The notes beneath the pieces were generated by a model that saw only the letters and a program-made list of their open reading frames with translations, ran no database searches and was not told the origin of the DNA. Position numbers and translations under genes: made by a program. Of a stretch of DNA of 64,000 bases, positions 21,306 through 29,417 are shown piece by piece. The first letter of the stretch is position 1, and the number at the start of each line of letters is the position of its first letter. The DNA comes from Anaerolineae bacterium (GTDB lineage: Bacteria; Chloroflexota; Anaerolineae; Aggregatilineales; UBA2796): contig JAHBVK010000003.1 in NCBI GenBank assembly GCA_019637555.1, forward strand, positions 124,001 through 188,000, written 5' to 3'.

Positions 21306-22274
21306 TTACGCCTGATAGCTTTTGTACCAGTCCATCGTTGACGGCGCGAGATCGTAGAATTCCGTCCACGGACGCGCGGCGGCAGCAGCGACTTCTGTCA
21401 GTTTGTTGATCCGCATCACAGCGGTTTCGTTCAAGAATTGCTGACGTTCCGCCTCGCCCATCGTCACAGCCTCTTTCCAGATCGCACGTCCGGCGAGCCA
21501 ACCGCTCGCGCCCGACTCACAGGCGATCTGCGTCTGTTCGAGGAATGTTTCAAAGTCAACGCCCGCTGAGAGCAGCACCCACGGCACGCTGCACGCCGCG
21601 CTCAACTCCTCGCAGGTGGAGCGCCACAGTTTGCGATCCGAGTTGTAAGCGACATCCACGGGAAATTCCATCTTCAAAACATCGGGCTGTAACTTGCTCA
21701 AGCGCCGCGCCGTCTCGATCACCACCGGCGGGCGGGTCCGCGCGAATGCTTCGCTTTCCTTCTTCACCGCCGGATCGAGGCTGTAGGACATTGGCTCCAA
21801 AAACAGCGGCAGATCAGCGCGGTGGCAATCCTCGCAAACCTCAGCGATCACCGCTTCGATCTCTTCTGTCAGTGCACCTGTTTGCGGATGGTAGTAGGGC
21901 ATCATCTTGACGGCGGAAGCGCCCATCGCTTTGATCTTGGCAACGTTCCACCCTTCCACAAAGTCGATGCGCCGATAGGTAGAGTCGCCGCTGTAACCGG
22001 ATTTCTCCAGTGACATCAGCAGCCCGCTGCCGCCAGACATTTGCAGCGCGGGATGCAAACCGTACTCGTGATCCAGCAGTACGGCGCTGGCGTGAAAGGA
22101 CAGCGCCACGACCACTTCCGTCTTAATCTGTACTGCTGCTTCATAGGTCGAATCGGTGGGCAGCATTTTGCGGTAACTGCCGCGTTGATCGAATGCCAGA
22201 ATGGCGAAAACCTGCTCGCGCGTGCTGGTGGTTTTGAGTCCACGCCATCGCCCCGGTGTGAGTGTTGCTTTCAT
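21306..22274 (-). CDS. LacD-type (tagatose-1,6-bisphosphate) class I aldolase
   Basis: A 322-residue class I aldolase of the LacD family. Visible segments are ILAFDQRGSYRKML, VLLDHEYGLHP, AVKMMPYYHP, LPLFLEPMSYSLD and DVLKMEFPVDV (Schiff-base Lys), followed by WVLLSAGVDFETFLEQ. It would cleave a ketose-1,6-bisphosphate into two triose phosphates. ATG 22274 has AAGGA eight nt upstream; the longer frame to 22382 runs into the kinase gene and is rejected. It is the last gene of the operon after the PfkB kinase, 14 nt away. Kinase plus aldolase fits a tagatose-6-phosphate-type route. The sulfofructose phosphate aldolase branch of the same family cannot be excluded. Confidence 0.87.
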   Translation of the reverse strand: MKATLTPGRWRGLKTTSTREQVFAILAFDQRGSYRKMLPTDSTYEAAVQIKTEVVVALSFHASAVLLDHEYGLHPALQMSGGSGLLMSLEKSGYSGDSTYRRIDFVEGWNVAKIKAMGASAVKMMPYYHPQTGALTEEIEAVIAEVCEDCHRADLPLFLEPMSYSLDPAVKKESEAFARTRPPVVIETARRLSKLQPDVLKMEFPVDVAYNSDRKLWRSTCEELSAACSVPWVLLSAGVDFETFLEQTQIACESGASGWLAGRAIWKEAVTMGEAERQQFLNETAVMRINKLTEVAAAAARPWTEFYDLAPSTMDWYKSYQA

Positions 22275-22288
22275 GATATGTCCTTTGT

Positions 22289-23236
22289 TCAACCCTGCGT
22301 GGATTTGATGAACGTGTGCACGGCATCTAGCTTCTGTGCGCCTGCCATCGGTCCCTGTGCCGTGACCGCCAACGCACCGCAAGCATTGGCAAACCGAGCC
22401 GACTCAACTGCCGAAGCACCGGACAGCCAGCGCACCAAGAATCCGGCGTCAAAGCAGTCGCCAGCTCCGGTAGGATCGACTTCCTGCACTTGGAAACCGG
22501 GGACGTGTACCGAGCCGAGCCGGGTGTACACCGTACATCCTTGTGCACCCTGCGTCAGCACAATCACCCGATCCGGCTTCTGGTAAAGCAGCGCGGCGAC
22601 GGCATCCTCAACGCTGCTGGTTCCGGTAAGCAACTGCGCTTCTTCCGCGGTGGGCAAGATCACGTCTGCCGCTGCCACGAACGGCTCGAAAGCGTCTCGC
22701 GCCCGTTCGACGGGCAGCAGCTGCGGGCGCAGGTTTGGATCGAAGCTGATCTTCGCGCCCGCCCGCCGCGCCAGTTCCAGCGCCCGCCATCCGGCTGCCA
22801 GCGCCGCATCGTGCATTGACAGCGATGACCCCATGATATGCAAGCAGCGCAAGCCCTCGAACAGCGCCGGATCGATCAGCGCGGGCGCGATCTGTCCGGC
22901 TGCGGCATGGCGGGCGTGAAACACGAAATCACGCGAACCGTCGTGGTTATAGGCGACAAAAGCCACACCCGTCGTATAGCCTTCCAGCGTGTGCACGCCG
23001 CGGGTATCAACGCCATCCTCAACCAGTTGATCCAGCAGGCAGCGTCCGAAGGCATCCGCCCCCACCGCTCCGATGCACGCCGCCTTCGCGCCCAGCCGCG
23101 CCGCCTGTACAGCGAAGATGAACGGCGCACCGCTGGGATACGGACCCGTGAACTCGCCCGCCAGATGCAGCGGTACACCAATCTTCGTCCGCATCACCTC
23201 GACCAGCGCCTCGCCAAACGTCAGCAGGTCAAGCAT
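22289..23236 (-). CDS. PfkB-family carbohydrate kinase
   Basis: A 315-residue ribokinase-fold sugar kinase. The N-terminal LTFGEALVEVM and GAVGADAFGRCLLDQLVEDGVDT segments and the C-terminal signature EVDPTGAGDCFDAGFLVRWL (anion hole and catalytic Asp) are clear. The substrate may be tagatose-6-phosphate, fructose or a keto-deoxy sugar acid, inferred only from the adjacent LacD-type aldolase. It begins 3 nt after the transporter ATPase stop, so the genes are tightly coupled in a leftward operon. Confidence 0.92.
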   Translation of the reverse strand: MLDLLTFGEALVEVMRTKIGVPLHLAGEFTGPYPSGAPFIFAVQAARLGAKAACIGAVGADAFGRCLLDQLVEDGVDTRGVHTLEGYTTGVAFVAYNHDGSRDFVFHARHAAAGQIAPALIDPALFEGLRCLHIMGSSLSMHDAALAAGWRALELARRAGAKISFDPNLRPQLLPVERARDAFEPFVAAADVILPTAEEAQLLTGTSSVEDAVAALLYQKPDRVIVLTQGAQGCTVYTRLGSVHVPGFQVQEVDPTGAGDCFDAGFLVRWLSGASAVESARFANACGALAVTAQGPMAGAQKLDAVHTFIKSTQG

Positions 23237-23239
23237 GGA

Positions 23240-24043
23240 TCAAGTCATCTCCCCCGCGCCGACCATATGCTTGACAATCAGATCGACGGTGGCATCCTGA
23301 CGCAGTACATTGGCGACCACGCGCCCGCGCCGCATCACCACCATGCGATCCGCTACATCGAAGACATCTTGCATGGTGTGGCTGACGAGGATCACAGGTA
23401 CGTCGTGTTCGCGCAGCGTGCGGATCAGTTGCAGCACTTTGCGCTGCTCCGGCACACCGAGCGCCGCCGTCGGCTCGTCCATGATCACCATGCGGGCATT
23501 CCAGTAGATCGCCCGCGCAATCGCCACCGCCTGCCGCTGACCGCCGGATAGGTAACTCAACTTCTGGCGCAGTGAGGGGATATGAATGCCCAGACGGCTG
23601 AGTACTTCTTCCGCTTCCTTGCGCATCGCTTCGTCGTCGGTTACGGACAGCAATCCGAATATCTTTTTCTTCTTCTCTTTGCCCAGAAATACGTTCGCGC
23701 CCACATCCAGATTTTCCGCCAGCGCCAAATCCTGATAGATCGTCTCGATGCCGGAGGCGCGCACATTAGCCGGAGTGAGATGCAAAATGTCTGTGCTGTT
23801 AAAGGTGATCTCCCCTTCCTCTGGTTTGTAGACGCCGGAGATGCATTTGATCAGCGTGGATTTGCCCGCACCGTTATCACCGAGCAGTGCCACCACCTCG
23901 CCGGGGTAAACCTCAAAATCGACCTTGTTCAGCGCCGTCAGACCGCCGAAGAACTTGGATACCTGATGGCAGGTCAGCAGTGGTGTGGAATTATTGACCC
24001 TTGGCGACGGACTGACGCTGCTGCTTACAATATTCTCAGACAT
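23240..24043 (-). CDS. Sugar ABC transporter ATP-binding protein (single-domain, FrcA-like)
   Basis: A 267-residue ATPase with Walker A LLGDNGAGKSTLIK, signature SYLSGGQRQAVAIARAI, Walker B MVIMDEPTAALG and switch histidine VILVSHTMQDVF. Unlike the ~500-residue RbsA type at 5193 it carries only one ABC domain and presumably acts as a homodimer, as in FrcA-type systems. The first ~25 residues are an extra Ser-rich tail. It overlaps the permease gene by 8 nt and immediately precedes the kinase. Confidence 0.94.
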   Translation of the reverse strand: MSENIVSSSVSPSPRVNNSTPLLTCHQVSKFFGGLTALNKVDFEVYPGEVVALLGDNGAGKSTLIKCISGVYKPEEGEITFNSTDILHLTPANVRASGIETIYQDLALAENLDVGANVFLGKEKKKKIFGLLSVTDDEAMRKEAEEVLSRLGIHIPSLRQKLSYLSGGQRQAVAIARAIYWNARMVIMDEPTAALGVPEQRKVLQLIRTLREHDVPVILVSHTMQDVFDVADRMVVMRRGRVVANVLRQDATVDLIVKHMVGAGEMT

Positions 24044-25151
24044 TGGTTCTCCTTCGCTCCAACAGCGCCCGCGCGTTATTGACCAGCACGGCGATAATGA
24101 TCACGATACCGACGATCACGAACTGCCACAGCGAGGCGATGTTGAGCATCACCAAGCCTGTTTGCAGCACGCCGAAGATCAACGCGCCGACTACTGCGCC
24201 GCGCACGCGACCCTCACCGCCGAATAGGTTTGTCCCACCGATGACCACCGCCGCCACCGAGTCGAGCAGCGCGGCTTCACCCGCTTGCGGTGCGCCTGCC
24301 GTAAAGCGGAAGACATGCAGCACGCCCGCGATGCCAGCCGTAAAAGCGCAGATGACGTAGATGAGGATGAGGTGGCGATCTACGTTAATGCCCGCGCGGA
24401 TCGCCGCGTCTTTGCTGCCGCCGATAGCGTAGGTATGCCGCCCAAACTGTGTCCGTCCCAACAAGAAACCGAAGATGATCAGCACGATGATAGTCACCAG
24501 CACTGGATAGGGCAGCCATGATTGCAAGTCGCGGAGCTGCGCCTGCGGTATATTGGCTGGTTCAGTGAAGAAGGACAGCCCTTGACCCGGCAAGTTGTAG
24601 ATCAAACTCCCACCGCCTATCGATCTCAGCACCTCGCGCACGTTTGCGGGCAGATTGCCAACCACTTGCTGACCATCGGTGAGTAGGAACGCTGCGCCGC
24701 GTACAATGCCGTACATACCGAGCGTAGCGATGAACGGAGGCACTTTGATTTTGGCGACCAAGATACCATTAATGATGCCGGGGATGAGCGAGACCAATAA
24801 GCCGAGGATCACACCGCAGGTGATGGCAATGCCGACGTCCGTGCCACCGTTTGCCATGTCGCGCATCGTCCGTGCCGCGATCACCGAAGCTAATCCTACC
24901 GTCCACGCGATGGAGAGATCGATGCCAGCCGTGATGATCACGTAAGTCTGCCCGACTGCCATCAGGGTGACGAGGGTGCCAGTCACCAGTACCGACGAGA
25001 AATTTCTGACTGTAAAGAAGCCGGGCGCTTGCGTCGAAAAGAAGATAATCAGCGCAGCCAGAAAAATATAAGACCAGAACCTAGCTGCTAAACTAGCGAG
25101 GTTATCCAGCGTCGATGACGATGCCTTCGGTGCTGTTAAAGTAGTTGCCAT
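24036..25151 (-). CDS. Sugar ABC transporter permease (RbsC/FrcC family)
   Basis: A 371-residue integral membrane protein with about ten helices. The signature regions are VIITAGIDLSIAWTVGLASV, NGILVAKIKVPPFIATLGMYGIVRG, TYAIGGSKDAAIRAGINVDRH and VAAVVIGGTNLFGGEGRVRGAVVGAL. An insertion in the middle (residues ~165-215, with VREVLRSIGGGSLIYNLPGQ) is longer than in the permease at 6689. It pairs with the single-domain ATPase, overlapping by 8 nt, and with the duplicated binding protein upstream. A strong hairpin lies between the binding protein and this gene. Confidence 0.93.
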   Translation of the reverse strand: MATTLTAPKASSSTLDNLASLAARFWSYIFLAALIIFFSTQAPGFFTVRNFSSVLVTGTLVTLMAVGQTYVIITAGIDLSIAWTVGLASVIAARTMRDMANGGTDVGIAITCGVILGLLVSLIPGIINGILVAKIKVPPFIATLGMYGIVRGAAFLLTDGQQVVGNLPANVREVLRSIGGGSLIYNLPGQGLSFFTEPANIPQAQLRDLQSWLPYPVLVTIIVLIIFGFLLGRTQFGRHTYAIGGSKDAAIRAGINVDRHLILIYVICAFTAGIAGVLHVFRFTAGAPQAGEAALLDSVAAVVIGGTNLFGGEGRVRGAVVGALIFGVLQTGLVMLNIASLWQFVIVGIVIIIAVLVNNARALLERRRTNV

Positions 25152-25298: not shown

Positions 25299-26465
25299 CT
25301 AGTTGCTCTTATAGATGAACTTGGCGATCTCAGGATCGTCCACGTTCTGCGCGTTGATGACCGCGTAGCCCGTGCCGATGCGCTTGGGGGTGGAAACCAC
25401 ACCACGCGCGTTCGCCACTGCCGTGACTACGCCGAGATAACCCATATCAGCGGGTTTCTGGGCGATCACCAGCGAGACCGTGCCCGCTTTCAAGTAGCCA
25501 ATGTTCTCCTCAGAGGCATCGAACAGCGCGACTTCAACCGAACCACTCAGGTTGGCATTGTCGATGGCTGCACCAGCGCCCAACGCGCCGAAGGTATTGG
25601 TGGCGAACATACCCTTGATGTCGGGGTTCGCGGTCAACACAGCGGCGGTCTGCTCTTGTGCCTTGTTGGCGTCGTTCTCGTTGTAGTCAACGCGGACGAC
25701 TTCCAAGCCCAAGTCAGCGGCGGCTTTCTTGCAGCCTTCCTCGCGCTGATCGGTGGTGCTGATGCCCGGACGCACGTTCTGGATGTAGATCTTCGCGCCC
25801 TTGCCTAGCTTCTCAGCCAGCGCCGCGCAAGCGATGTAACCGCCCTGCACGTTGTCTGAACCGATGTAGCTTAGCGGGAACTTGATCTCGCCGTTAGCAT
25901 AGTCACCATCACCGATGAAGGTGTCCACCGTGATTACGGGGATGCCCGCATCATAGGCTTTTTGCAGTACGGGGATCGACTGCTCTTTGTCGTTCGGTGC
26001 AGTCACCAGCGCGTCGATATCACCACGCGCGATCAGCGCTTCCACGATAGGCGCGGAGACCGTGACATCGAACTTGGGCGGGTCTTGCTGCACGACAGTC
26101 ACGCCGAGGCGACCAGCAGCGGCATTGACACCCTTCGCCATGGTGATGTAGAAGGGATCGGGGTTGACGCCCGGAACGAAGCCGACGATGAAATCTTTAC
26201 CGAGCGCGGGCTTTACTTCTGCCGTGTTGCTGGTGTAGATGTACTTGGCGTCATCAGGATTGTCGACATTATCTTTGGTCAGCACGGCGTAGCCAGTGGG
26301 TACGCGCTTGGGCAGGCTCTGATAGCCATCCAAGTACGCGACGGCGTAGGCAATGCCGAGATAACCCATATCAGCGGGTTTCTGGGCGATCACCAGCGAG
26401 ACCGTGCCCGCCTTCAAGTAGCCGATGTTCTCCTCAGAGGCATCGAACAGCGCGACAATGACCAC
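25299..26465 (-). CDS. Second copy of a tandem sugar-binding protein (out of frame with the first)
   Basis: A 388-residue frame. Residues 3-85 are the missing C-terminal part of the first copy (VALFDASEENIGYLKAG to YIYTSN). A linker (TAEVKPALGKD) then leads into a complete second periplasmic-binding domain (FIVGFVPGVNPDPFYITMAKG to FIYKSN). The second copy has no signal peptide, so it was made to be part of one exported double-domain protein. The GTG at 26465 is only the frame's edge, not a real start. Copies 1 and 2 are nearly identical in their central parts at DNA level, with a repeat offset of 919-924 nt. Function: substrate capture for the permease and ATPase downstream. Confidence 0.8.
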   Translation of the reverse strand: MVIVALFDASEENIGYLKAGTVSLVIAQKPADMGYLGIAYAVAYLDGYQSLPKRVPTGYAVLTKDNVDNPDDAKYIYTSNTAEVKPALGKDFIVGFVPGVNPDPFYITMAKGVNAAAGRLGVTVVQQDPPKFDVTVSAPIVEALIARGDIDALVTAPNDKEQSIPVLQKAYDAGIPVITVDTFIGDGDYANGEIKFPLSYIGSDNVQGGYIACAALAEKLGKGAKIYIQNVRPGISTTDQREEGCKKAAADLGLEVVRVDYNENDANKAQEQTAAVLTANPDIKGMFATNTFGALGAGAAIDNANLSGSVEVALFDASEENIGYLKAGTVSLVIAQKPADMGYLGVVTAVANARGVVSTPKRIGTGYAVINAQNVDDPEIAKFIYKSN

Positions 26466-27201
26466 TCAGGTTGGCATTATCGATGGCTGCGCCAGCGCCC
26501 AACGCGCCGAAGGTATTGGTGGCGAACATGCCCTTGATGTCGGGATTGGCGTTCAATACAGCGGCGGTCTGCTCTTGTGCCTTGTTGGCGTCGTTCTCGT
26601 TGTAGTCTACACGGACGACTTCCAAGCCCTTATCTTTAGCAGCGTTCTTGCAGCCTTCTTCGCGCTGATCGGTGGTGCTGATGCCCGGACGCACGTTCTG
26701 GATGTAGATCTTCGCGCCGGAACCGAGTTTGTCAGCGAGAGCAGAGCAAGCGATGTAACCGCCCTGCACGTTGTCTGAACCGATGTAGCTTAGCGGGAAC
26801 TTGATCTCGCCGTTGGCATAGTCACCATCACCGATGAAGGTATCCACCGTGATCACGGGGATGCCCGCATCATAGGCTTTTTGCAGTACCGGGATCGACT
26901 GCTCTTTGTCGTTCGGTGCAGTCACCAGCGCGTCGATATCACCACGCGCGATCAGCGCTTCCACGATAGGCGCGGAGACCGTGACATCGAACTTGGCGGG
27001 GTCTTGCTGGACCACTTCCACGCCTAAGTCAGCGGCAGCCTGATTGACACCGCTCGCCATGGTGATGTAGAAGGGATCGGGGTTGACGCCCGGAACAAAG
27101 GCTATCGTATATTTCTCTGCTTGTGCCTTGGCGGTTGGCGTTGTACCAACGAGTGCTGTCACCAACAAAACAGCGGTGAACAGGATCACTAGTCTTTTCA
27201 T
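26434..27201 (-). CDS. First copy of the tandem sugar-binding protein, truncated by a 5-nt deletion
   Basis: 255 residues starting at ATG 27201 with AAGGAG nine nt upstream. The signal peptide MKRLVILFTAVLLVTALVG ends near AKAQA. The binding-protein fold begins YTIAFVPGVNPDPFYITMAS and includes IPVITVDTFIGDGDYANGE and IYIQNVRPGISTTDQREEGC. After NANLSG the frame breaks into HCRAVRCL and stops. Copy 2 has TCGGTTGAAGTCGCG at this place and copy 1 has CATTGTCGCG, i.e. five nt fewer. With those five nt the frame would run on to 25299 as a 635-residue double protein. A shortened first domain alone would probably not fold properly. Confidence 0.82.
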   Translation of the reverse strand: MKRLVILFTAVLLVTALVGTTPTAKAQAEKYTIAFVPGVNPDPFYITMASGVNQAAADLGVEVVQQDPAKFDVTVSAPIVEALIARGDIDALVTAPNDKEQSIPVLQKAYDAGIPVITVDTFIGDGDYANGEIKFPLSYIGSDNVQGGYIACSALADKLGSGAKIYIQNVRPGISTTDQREEGCKNAAKDKGLEVVRVDYNENDANKAQEQTAAVLNANPDIKGMFATNTFGALGAGAAIDNANLSGHCRAVRCL

Positions 27202-27397: not shown

Positions 27398-28204
27398 CTA
27401 CTCGTCACTAATTTCTACCCGAATCACTTCAGGTCCTAGTGCTGCGATCGCGGCGCAGTCTTCATCGCTCAGATGGTTATCCGTGATCACGATGTCGAAG
27501 GCGTGGAGTGGCGCTACCGTTAACGGGCGAATCTTGCCGAACTTGCTGCTATCCGCTAACAACACGACTTTTGCCGCTTGCTTAACCATGGTGCGCTTCA
27601 CTTCGACTTCCTGTGTATCGGAGTTGGCAGCACCGCGTGCCAAACTGAAGCCGCCACAGGCAAGGAACGCCCAGTCAGCGTTGACCCCTTCCAGTGCGCG
27701 TACCGCCTGTGCGCCGGAGAGCGTGCGCGTCAGATGATGCAGCACCCCACCGGTCATGATCAGTTCGATGTAGCCAAATTGGGCGGCAGCAGCAGCGACA
27801 CTCAAGGAAGGTGTGACGAGGCGAAGGTAATCCCAATCTCTCGGCAGATGTTCAACGAACTCAACAGCGGTGGTTCCGGCATCGATCATGATCGTCTGAC
27901 CAACGTCGATCAGTTGTACGGCGCGTGCGCCGATGGCACGTTTGGCTTCAGCGTTGAGTTTGCTGCGTTCGAGGAGAAATGTTTCGCCAAGTTGAGTGGG
28001 CAGCCGTTTGGAGACAGCGCCACCCCAGATGACTTCGCAAATGCCAGCGCTTTCGAGTTCCCGCAGGTCGGCGCGGATAGTGGCAACGGAAACGTTCAAA
28101 ATTTCCCTTAGCTCAACGGTACGCACCGCACCCTGATGGTAAAGAAGATCTTCGATGATCCGCTGTCTTTCGACAGCAAGTAACGTTCCTTCGTTGGCTG
28201 GCAT
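27398..28204 (-). CDS. DeoR-family transcriptional regulator
   Basis: A 268-residue DeoR/GlpR-type repressor. The N-terminal helix-turn-helix is ERQRIIEDLLYHQGAVRTVE then LREILNVSVATIRADLRELE. The C-terminal sugar-phosphate sensor domain contains TIMIDAGTTAVEFVEHLP, LIMTGGVLHHLTRTLSG and VLLADSSKFGK. It precedes the binding protein, permease, ATPase, kinase and aldolase genes in the same direction, and diverges from the ROK kinase. It is the likely regulator of both units, responding to a phosphorylated intermediate. Direct TCAAATTTT repeats 10 bp apart occur upstream. Confidence 0.94.
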   Translation of the reverse strand: MPANEGTLLAVERQRIIEDLLYHQGAVRTVELREILNVSVATIRADLRELESAGICEVIWGGAVSKRLPTQLGETFLLERSKLNAEAKRAIGARAVQLIDVGQTIMIDAGTTAVEFVEHLPRDWDYLRLVTPSLSVAAAAAQFGYIELIMTGGVLHHLTRTLSGAQAVRALEGVNADWAFLACGGFSLARGAANSDTQEVEVKRTMVKQAAKVVLLADSSKFGKIRPLTVAPLHAFDIVITDNHLSDEDCAAIAALGPEVIRVEISDE

Positions 28205-28329: not shown

Positions 28330-28473
28330 TTGAAAGTATTATCTTTCTTTATTGCAAGTGGAGTAGATGAACGTGAGGACGGCGATCAGATCAGTTTGCG
28401 CAGTGTATCCGTCGACGTTTTATCAGTGCCTGATCGCGCCATTCACGATCTGATCAATGGATTGACGCCGTGA
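28330..28473 (+). CDS. Possible short ORF or gene remnant coupled to the ROK kinase
   Basis: A 47-codon frame ending SVSVDVLSVPDRAIHDLING then LTP. Its TGA overlaps the GTG start of the ROK kinase (GTGA), which is a typical coupling arrangement. The codon pattern from GAT 28366 on looks coding. The only start is a TTG at 28330 in A/T-rich DNA without a clear ribosome site. It could be the tail of a lost gene or a translational leader. I do not recognise it. Confidence 0.22.
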   Translation: MKVLSFFIASGVDEREDGDQISLRSVSVDVLSVPDRAIHDLINGLTP

Positions 28474-29417
28474 GTACCTTAAGCATCGATTTCGGCGGGA
28501 CGCGCACCCGCGCCGCATGGTTCTCGCCACAATTAGAAATGCTGGCACGCCACGAAACTCTCTCGCGCGTGGATCGCACCGTCGCAGAGGTGATCGACAC
28601 GCTGATCCAGACGGCACGTGCCGTCGTGCCAGCCGATCAAACGCCAGCCGTGATCGGCGTCTGTGCGCCCGGTCCACTTGATCCGCTGGCTGGCGTGATC
28701 AAACGCGCGGAGACGCTACCCGGCTGGCAGGATGTCCACTTAGCGCAGTTGATCAGCAACGCCTTCAACGATGTGCCAACCTTCGTGCAGAACGATGGCA
28801 ATCTCGGCGCACTGGCGGAATATCGCTTTGGATCGCTGCTCGGCGCTGATCCGGCGATCTTCATGACTATCAGCACAGGGATCGGCGGCGGCGCGATCCT
28901 CAATGGTAAGCTGTTCAGCGGCAGCGGCGGGTTGGCAATTGAGCCGGGGCATCTCCGCATCGCGCACAGGGACGGCAAATTGTATCGGCTGGAAGAACTG
29001 GCATCGGGGACGGCGCTAGGCGTGTGGGCGCAGCGCAAACTGGCGGAACGCGATCAAGCATCTTCGCTTCGCAGCGCCAGTGTTGTCGATGGTAAGGCAG
29101 TCGGCGCTGCCGCCCAGAGTGGTGATCCTTTCGCGCTAGAGATCGTCGCGCAGGCAGGTTACTGGCTCGGCGTCGGCATCGCCAATCTGCTGCACCTATT
29201 TAATCCGCAGGGGATCGCGCTCGGCGGCAGTGTCACCCGACTCGGTGATCTGCTGCTCGAACCGACTCGCCACGCGATTCAAGCGAATCTGATCGACGCT
29301 GCGCTCTACAACGACGATCTGATCCGCTATGCCGCGCTCGGTGAAAATGCCTGCTTGCAAGGTGCCGCGCTTTATGCCGCCGATTGCCTGAATGGTGATT
29401 ATGACCTCCAATCGTGA
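28470..29417 (+). CDS. ROK-family sugar kinase
   Basis: A 315-residue ROK (repressor, ORF, kinase) family protein, of the kinase kind because it lacks an N-terminal helix-turn-helix. The phosphate loop SIDFGGTRTRAAW opens the protein. The catalytic region is VQNDGNLGALAEYRFG (Asp base), followed by ISTGIGGGAILNGKL and EPGHLRI. The usual zinc-binding cysteine cluster after EPGH is absent (HRDGKLYRLEELASG), which is seen in a subset of the family. It probably phosphorylates glucose, fructose or an N-acetylhexosamine. The GTG start overlaps the stop of a short upstream frame. It is divergent from the DeoR gene. Confidence 0.9.
   Translation: MSTLSIDFGGTRTRAAWFSPQLEMLARHETLSRVDRTVAEVIDTLIQTARAVVPADQTPAVIGVCAPGPLDPLAGVIKRAETLPGWQDVHLAQLISNAFNDVPTFVQNDGNLGALAEYRFGSLLGADPAIFMTISTGIGGGAILNGKLFSGSGGLAIEPGHLRIAHRDGKLYRLEELASGTALGVWAQRKLAERDQASSLRSASVVDGKAVGAAAQSGDPFALEIVAQAGYWLGVGIANLLHLFNPQGIALGGSVTRLGDLLLEPTRHAIQANLIDAALYNDDLIRYAALGENACLQGAALYAADCLNGDYDLQS

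Follow-up and report, generated by a model that had tools for sequence, protein, structure and literature searches.

Tandem sugar-binding domains on one polypeptide in Chloroflexota: a probably old fusion whose halves appear to be homogenised by recombination

We analysed a 64,000-nucleotide stretch of an Anaerolineae bacterium genome (hereafter the window; assembly GCA_019637555.1, contig JAHBVK010000003.1, positions 124,001 to 188,000). On its minus strand, at 25299-27201, lies a frameshifted gene for a tandem two-domain substrate-binding protein of a CUT2-type (monosaccharide) ATP-binding cassette (ABC) importer. This gene, the putative binding-protein gene of a tagatose- or ketohexose-type CUT2 importer, very probably belongs to an old family of tandem-domain proteins in which the two halves have been homogenised by recombination, and the window copy carries a loss of five nucleotides in domain 1. 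The genome is a draft metagenome-assembled genome (MAG) of 6.5 Mb in 116 contigs, with 94.4% completeness and 5.33% contamination.

A double binding-protein gene with a net 5-nucleotide gap

The initial annotation had described two near-identical binding domains lying head to tail, and a gapped alignment of the two copies confirmed this, with 689/751 identities (92% over ~750 nucleotides) and one net 5-nucleotide gap. The match is far beyond chance. Both repeat offsets that had been reported were recovered as direct repeats, with a spacing of 919 for 25542-25841 and 26461-26760 (90%) and a spacing of 924 for 25410-25532 and 26334-26456 (91%) as well as for 25302-25388 and 26226-26312 (71%). 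The five-nucleotide loss placed near 26460 is present in the assembled sequence, with the gap at approximately 26456-26461, where the N copy reads GGTCATTGTCGCG and the C copy GGTTCGGTTGAAGTCGCG.

The first reading frame starts at 27201 (MKRLVILFTAVLLVTALVGTTPTAKAQAEKYT...) and encodes 255 residues before it ends at the stop at 26434. A second open frame extends from 26465 to 25299 (388 residues) and comprises the end of domain 1, the linker and the whole of domain 2. Both pieces matched Peripla_BP_4 (Pfam PF13407), with E-values of 6e-42 and 7e-58. Restoring five nucleotides to the 1903 gives an uninterrupted frame of 636 codons and a protein of 635 residues, the length that had been proposed (~635 residues). 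Intact doubles in relatives support the former existence of a fused two-domain protein. The N-terminus resembles a signal peptide, as judged by eye alone. Because the downstream piece lacks a signal peptide, the assembled form of the gene cannot yield the double protein. The features of the gene, all on the minus strand, are as follows.

25299..27201: the whole tandem gene, frameshifted (repeat, frames, Pfam, intact orthologues)
27112..27201: Sec-type signal peptide region (MKRLVILFTAVLLVTALVGTTPTAKA|QAE...), assigned by eye; no lipobox cysteine seen
26226..27114: domain 1 (Peripla_BP_4), broken by the frameshift (alignment, Pfam)
26365..26985: homogenised core of domain 1, approximate limits (alignment, synonymous sites, trees)
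26456..26461: net 5-nucleotide gap relative to domain 2 and to all intact orthologues (repeat alignment, orthologues)
26434..26436: premature stop of the first frame (open reading frames)
26202..26225: interdomain linker (NTAEVKPA...), with length and place as in the relatives (alignment)
25302..26201: domain 2 (Peripla_BP_4), intact up to the stop codon (frames, Pfam)
25440..26066: homogenised core of domain 2, approximate limits (alignment, synonymous sites, trees)

Cores and flanks with different histories

The initial annotation had taken the high identity of the copies as a sign of a recent event, and had suggested looking in relatives for an intact double-domain protein. A first search, in genomes of the same order, yielded uninterrupted frames of 635-729 residues that matched the query twice. 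A scan of 84,980 species genomes then gave 59 related loci, nearly all from Chloroflexota, from which 41 full-length double proteins were extracted after removal of duplicates. The repeat period, where motifs were readable, is 308 residues in nearly all doubles and 307 in three, and the linker can be aligned between the window (TSNTAEVKPALGKDF) and the intact relative L038 (TSNTAEPAARFGEDF). Since 41 intact orthologues share the period of 307-308 residues and the linker, the fusion appears to be old rather than a recent event in the window genome, and the dating drawn from the identity of the copies does not hold. The resemblance of the halves would stem from homogenisation and not from a new duplication.

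The window copies diverge unevenly, a point absent from the initial annotation: they are almost the same in the centre but clearly different in the first helix and over the last ~45 residues. The halves within each of the 41 doubles are 83-97% identical, while orthologous domains of other genera fall to only 50-80% at the lowest, and the residues that distinguish N from C domains are confined to the first ~35 and the last ~45 alignment columns. In the window protein, the N-type and C-type residues sit in the correct halves. A flank tree of 12 proteins (24 rows, with L063, L081 and L090 omitted) separated all N from all C domains with support of 98/95. In the tree built from the core, which spans the 210 central columns, N and C domains instead joined within each protein almost throughout (100/99 for the window pair), and a single clade of all N cores was rejected (p 4e-50). 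Adjacent segments of the same proteins thus give conflicting trees. The limits of core and flank were picked after the alignment had been viewed, and the tree supports are to be read accordingly.

At four-fold-degenerate sites of the window core, 87/102 match between the halves (0.85), compared with an expectation of 0.39 based on codon use and a value of 0.39 between the nearest orthologues. The corresponding counts are 9/16 in the tail and 13/17 in the head stretch, into which the homogenised tract may reach. Since synonymous sites match too, selection on the protein sequence alone is argued against. Among the members, core synonymous identity between halves varies from 0.54 to 1.00, as expected for episodic events, and in L043, L047 and L050 it is near the level of their orthologues. 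In L063 (4239-6413), the tail of domain 2 is overwritten by the domain-1 version and all core synonymous sites are identical (115/115), which has the appearance of a fresh homogenisation event. Taken at the level of sequence, these patterns point to concerted evolution by recombination inside one gene.

According to the model that we propose, this locus of an Anaerolineae-related Chloroflexota MAG would encode the binding protein in an operon for a CUT2 importer of the tagatose or ketohexose type. Two complete binding domains would have been fused head to tail long ago into one secreted polypeptide. Recombination between the halves, presumably gene conversion and possibly unequal exchange, would then have repeatedly overwritten the ligand-binding cores, leaving domain-specific residues in the segments that flank the joint, namely the tail of domain 1 and the first helix of domain 2. 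Intact relatives would thereby offer one permease two equivalent sugar-binding sites on each polypeptide, and the capacity to capture sugar close to the membrane may be raised, as it is in other importers with tandem sites. In the window copy, five bases of domain 1 would be missing, either lost in a very recent inactivation or dropped by mistake when the repeat was assembled.

An unlikely alternative is that a single-domain ancestor was duplicated independently, lineage by lineage, with no gene conversion at all. The near-universal pairing of N and C cores within proteins would be expected from such a history, and single-domain homologues with 52-58% identity do occur in the order. Against it stand the joint residues, which are shared and derived, the same period and linker across genera, the N/C split of the flanks and the partial overwriting in L063. 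The pair L106/L116 from a further subfamily argues in the same direction: by protein sequence the orthologous halves are closer (0.91 versus 0.86), whereas at synonymous sites the sister halves are (0.81 versus 0.60). An in-frame duplication confined to the window genome and followed by the frameshift would account for copies that are 92% identical; it is, however, hardly credible in view of 41 relatives with the same double, period and linker, of window flanks that fall with their N and C counterparts from other genera, and of synonymous identity that is high only outside the tail.

Several observations weigh against an old, single fusion with homogenised halves. The most distant pair, L081/L090, has no clear N/C flank signature, and in a 15-protein set the flank signal was blurred by this pair and by L063. 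A tree holding the window flanks together was rejected only at p 0.034, and an independent duplication in the L011/L012 lineage was not rejected on the flanks (p 0.23). The flank tests being modest, the claim of a single origin leans also on the shared period and linker. Furthermore, L073 and L079 are single-domain orthologues in the same operon. The assignment of the ligand comes from neighbouring genes, and the advantage of two equal sites is itself an inference.

The single-domain proteins of L073 (4899-5912) and L079 (4881-5879) combine an N-type head with a C-type tail, the combination that would be left by a deletion between the repeats or by a collapse in assembly. We did not adopt them as proof of domain loss; more distant single-domain homologues partly share this head/tail pattern. 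In 121 genomes sampled evenly from the phylum, there were few strong matches to the window protein, and outside the window genome these were frames of single length (up to 460 residues); within this sample the double form looks restricted. No second tandem pair of the same family occurred in the window genome among the matches listed (part of 50). A Clostridia MAG (L096, 2385-6723) has four consecutive, separate single-domain binding-protein genes.

More tandem double Peripla_BP_4 subfamilies were observed in the same order (L097-L116, L032, L034 and L035), which are only ~30% identical to the window family. In 22 of these 23 further doubles the halves are 80-100% identical. The exception, L101 (G034:C54:31400-34100), has unlike halves (25-26%), and its N half matches L113 at 74% identity. 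Six groups have a constant or almost constant repeat period, with differences of 9 residues between L112 and L113 and of 4 between L105 and L115. In these groups, synonymous identity amounts to 0.64-1.0 within proteins and to 0.35-0.62 in most orthologous pairs, two close pairs reaching 0.78-0.84. It is reasonably likely that several separate subfamilies in one Chloroflexota order are tandem doubles with cores continually homogenised within the gene and with domain-specific helices facing the joint, two identical sites per importer protein being kept as a selected trait.

The origin of the gap

We considered whether the doubles as such could be products of assembly. This was rejected because they are present in dozens of independent assemblies, including a genome of five contigs (G053) that contains several of them. 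The gap in the window copy is a separate matter. It is found in none of the 41 full-length relatives, which were chosen as long open frames, so that a broken relative could not be among them. The odds between an assembly error and a recent pseudogene are about even; each concerns the gap alone and is compatible with the history proposed above.

The gap may well be an error in a draft metagenome, the gene being intact in the living cell. The genome consists of 116 contigs, and the gene is cut off by a contig end in 15 of the 59 related contigs, which indicates that assemblers struggle at this site. Six of these ends are matching pairs from three MAGs (L070/L089, L071/L075 and L076/L084). That all full-length relatives are intact, and that neither piece contains a further stop or frameshift, agrees with an error. 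Confusion between repeats, however, more often gives breaks or chimeras than a small unique gap.

A genuine, recent frameshift that turned the gene into a pseudogene is also quite possible. The sequence as given contains it, and the gap is small and lies outside any homopolymer. The absence of decay from the rest of the gene fits a young lesion, although it fits an error equally; against a pseudogene, the rest of the importer operon looks intact. One or two products might, thirdly, be made from the split gene by programmed frameshifting or translational coupling, as the two frames overlap by ~30 nucleotides. This is very improbable: no full-length relative needs such a mechanism, the second frame has no signal peptide, and inspection by eye revealed no ribosome-binding motif ahead of its GTG. 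A second copy that seems broken, with two overlapping frames of 184 and 255 residues, was observed at a contig end (L088, 1-940).

The operon, known systems and significance

The genes surrounding the binding-protein gene in the window are as follows.

24036..25151, minus strand: permease (BPD_transp_2, RbsC/AraH-like), by domain match; adjoins the binding protein in relatives too
23240..24043, minus strand: ATPase of 267 residues with one nucleotide-binding domain, by domain match
22289..23236, minus strand: PfkB-family kinase; best NCBIfam match tagatose kinase, below the cut-off, by profile match
21306..22274, minus strand: DeoC/LacD-family aldolase; tagatose 1,6-diphosphate aldolase model NF009498 above the cut-off, by profile match
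27398..28204, minus strand: DeoR-family regulator; closest model AgaR, below the cut-off, by profile match
28470..29417, plus strand: ROK-family sugar kinase, divergent, with a homologue upstream of the binding protein in many relatives, by profile match and neighbourhoods

The partners of a CUT2 operon, a BPD_transp_2 permease and a sugar-type ATPase, are both there. The order binding protein, permease, ATPase, (kinase), aldolase is kept at many related loci, and most of the intact doubles have a permease, an ATPase of the single-domain form and an aldolase of the tagatose-bisphosphate type as neighbours. The tagatose kinase model scored the PfkB-family kinase at 297 bits against a cut-off of 420. 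Judging by these neighbours, the putative ligand is tagatose or a related ketohexose. The ATPase of this sugar importer (23240-24043) has a single nucleotide-binding domain, unlike the double ATPases RbsA and AraG, and this form is kept in relatives.

The intact relative L038 was modelled with AlphaFold, with a mean predicted local distance difference test (pLDDT) score of 79.8 and a predicted template modelling (pTM) score of 0.81, and the model contains two complete binding-protein folds of the alternating alpha/beta type. In each domain of this model, the N- and C-specific columns lie within or close to the first helix and the last long one, and they adjoin the joint in sequence. The nearest solved fold is 5dkv, the single-domain sugar-binding protein Avis_5339 of Agrobacterium vitis, with ~46% identity in the fold alignment and a sequence match of E 1e-79; RbsB folds were also matched. 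Like CUT2 binding proteins of the RbsB/AlsB type (PF13407), the window family has a PF13407 domain in each half and the permease and sugar ATPase as partners. Among the best matches, the solved CUT2 proteins have one domain per chain and a length of ~270-320 residues, whereas the window family carries two domains per chain. Fold and operon being what defines membership, the two-domain chain is treated as a variant of the CUT2 family.

Tandem substrate-binding domains on one polypeptide are known from GlnPQ of Lactococcus lactis and relatives (PMC8025302, PMC11331510). The passages on GlnPQ in PMC8025302 describe these domains as joined to the transmembrane domain and as differing in specificity. 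The window double protein, by contrast, is encoded apart from its permease, belongs to another binding-protein family and has nearly identical pockets. In OpuA, two equal binding domains per complex are held close together and serve one transporter (PMC11065425); here, a single separate chain carries both domains. That two equal sites would be beneficial is suggested by analogy with GlnPQ and OpuA (PMC8025302, PMC11065425). Concerted evolution of duplicated genes and repeats likewise leaves copies within a genome closer to each other than to orthologues, synonymous sites included, but in the window family it would act between two domains of ~300 residues in one protein gene and spare the segments facing the joint.

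Neither the best-matching solved structures nor the open-access literature yielded a separate tandem CUT2 binding protein whose halves are homogenised, which is weak evidence, as most subscription papers lie outside such a search. The open-access literature also returned nothing relevant on gene conversion or concerted evolution in substrate-binding proteins, on double-domain sugar-binding proteins, or on tagatose kinase together with ABC transporters. The initial annotation had called two fused domains unusual for this class of importer. Among solved structures and searchable papers that statement stands; within the order it does not, as further tandem subfamilies exist. The parts are known; what is new is the tandem-domain family together with its homogenisation.

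High identity between the halves of a gene does not date their duplication. Such genes also break assemblies, so that a frameshift or a single-domain version should be viewed with suspicion when it comes from a draft genome. The described tandem binding domains that we found are fused to the transporter itself and, in GlnPQ, have different specificities. Widespread separate doubles with near-identical pockets raise the question of what is gained from a second, equal site, for which the intact doubles, the single-domain orthologues in the same operon and the subfamilies of different kinds offer natural test material.
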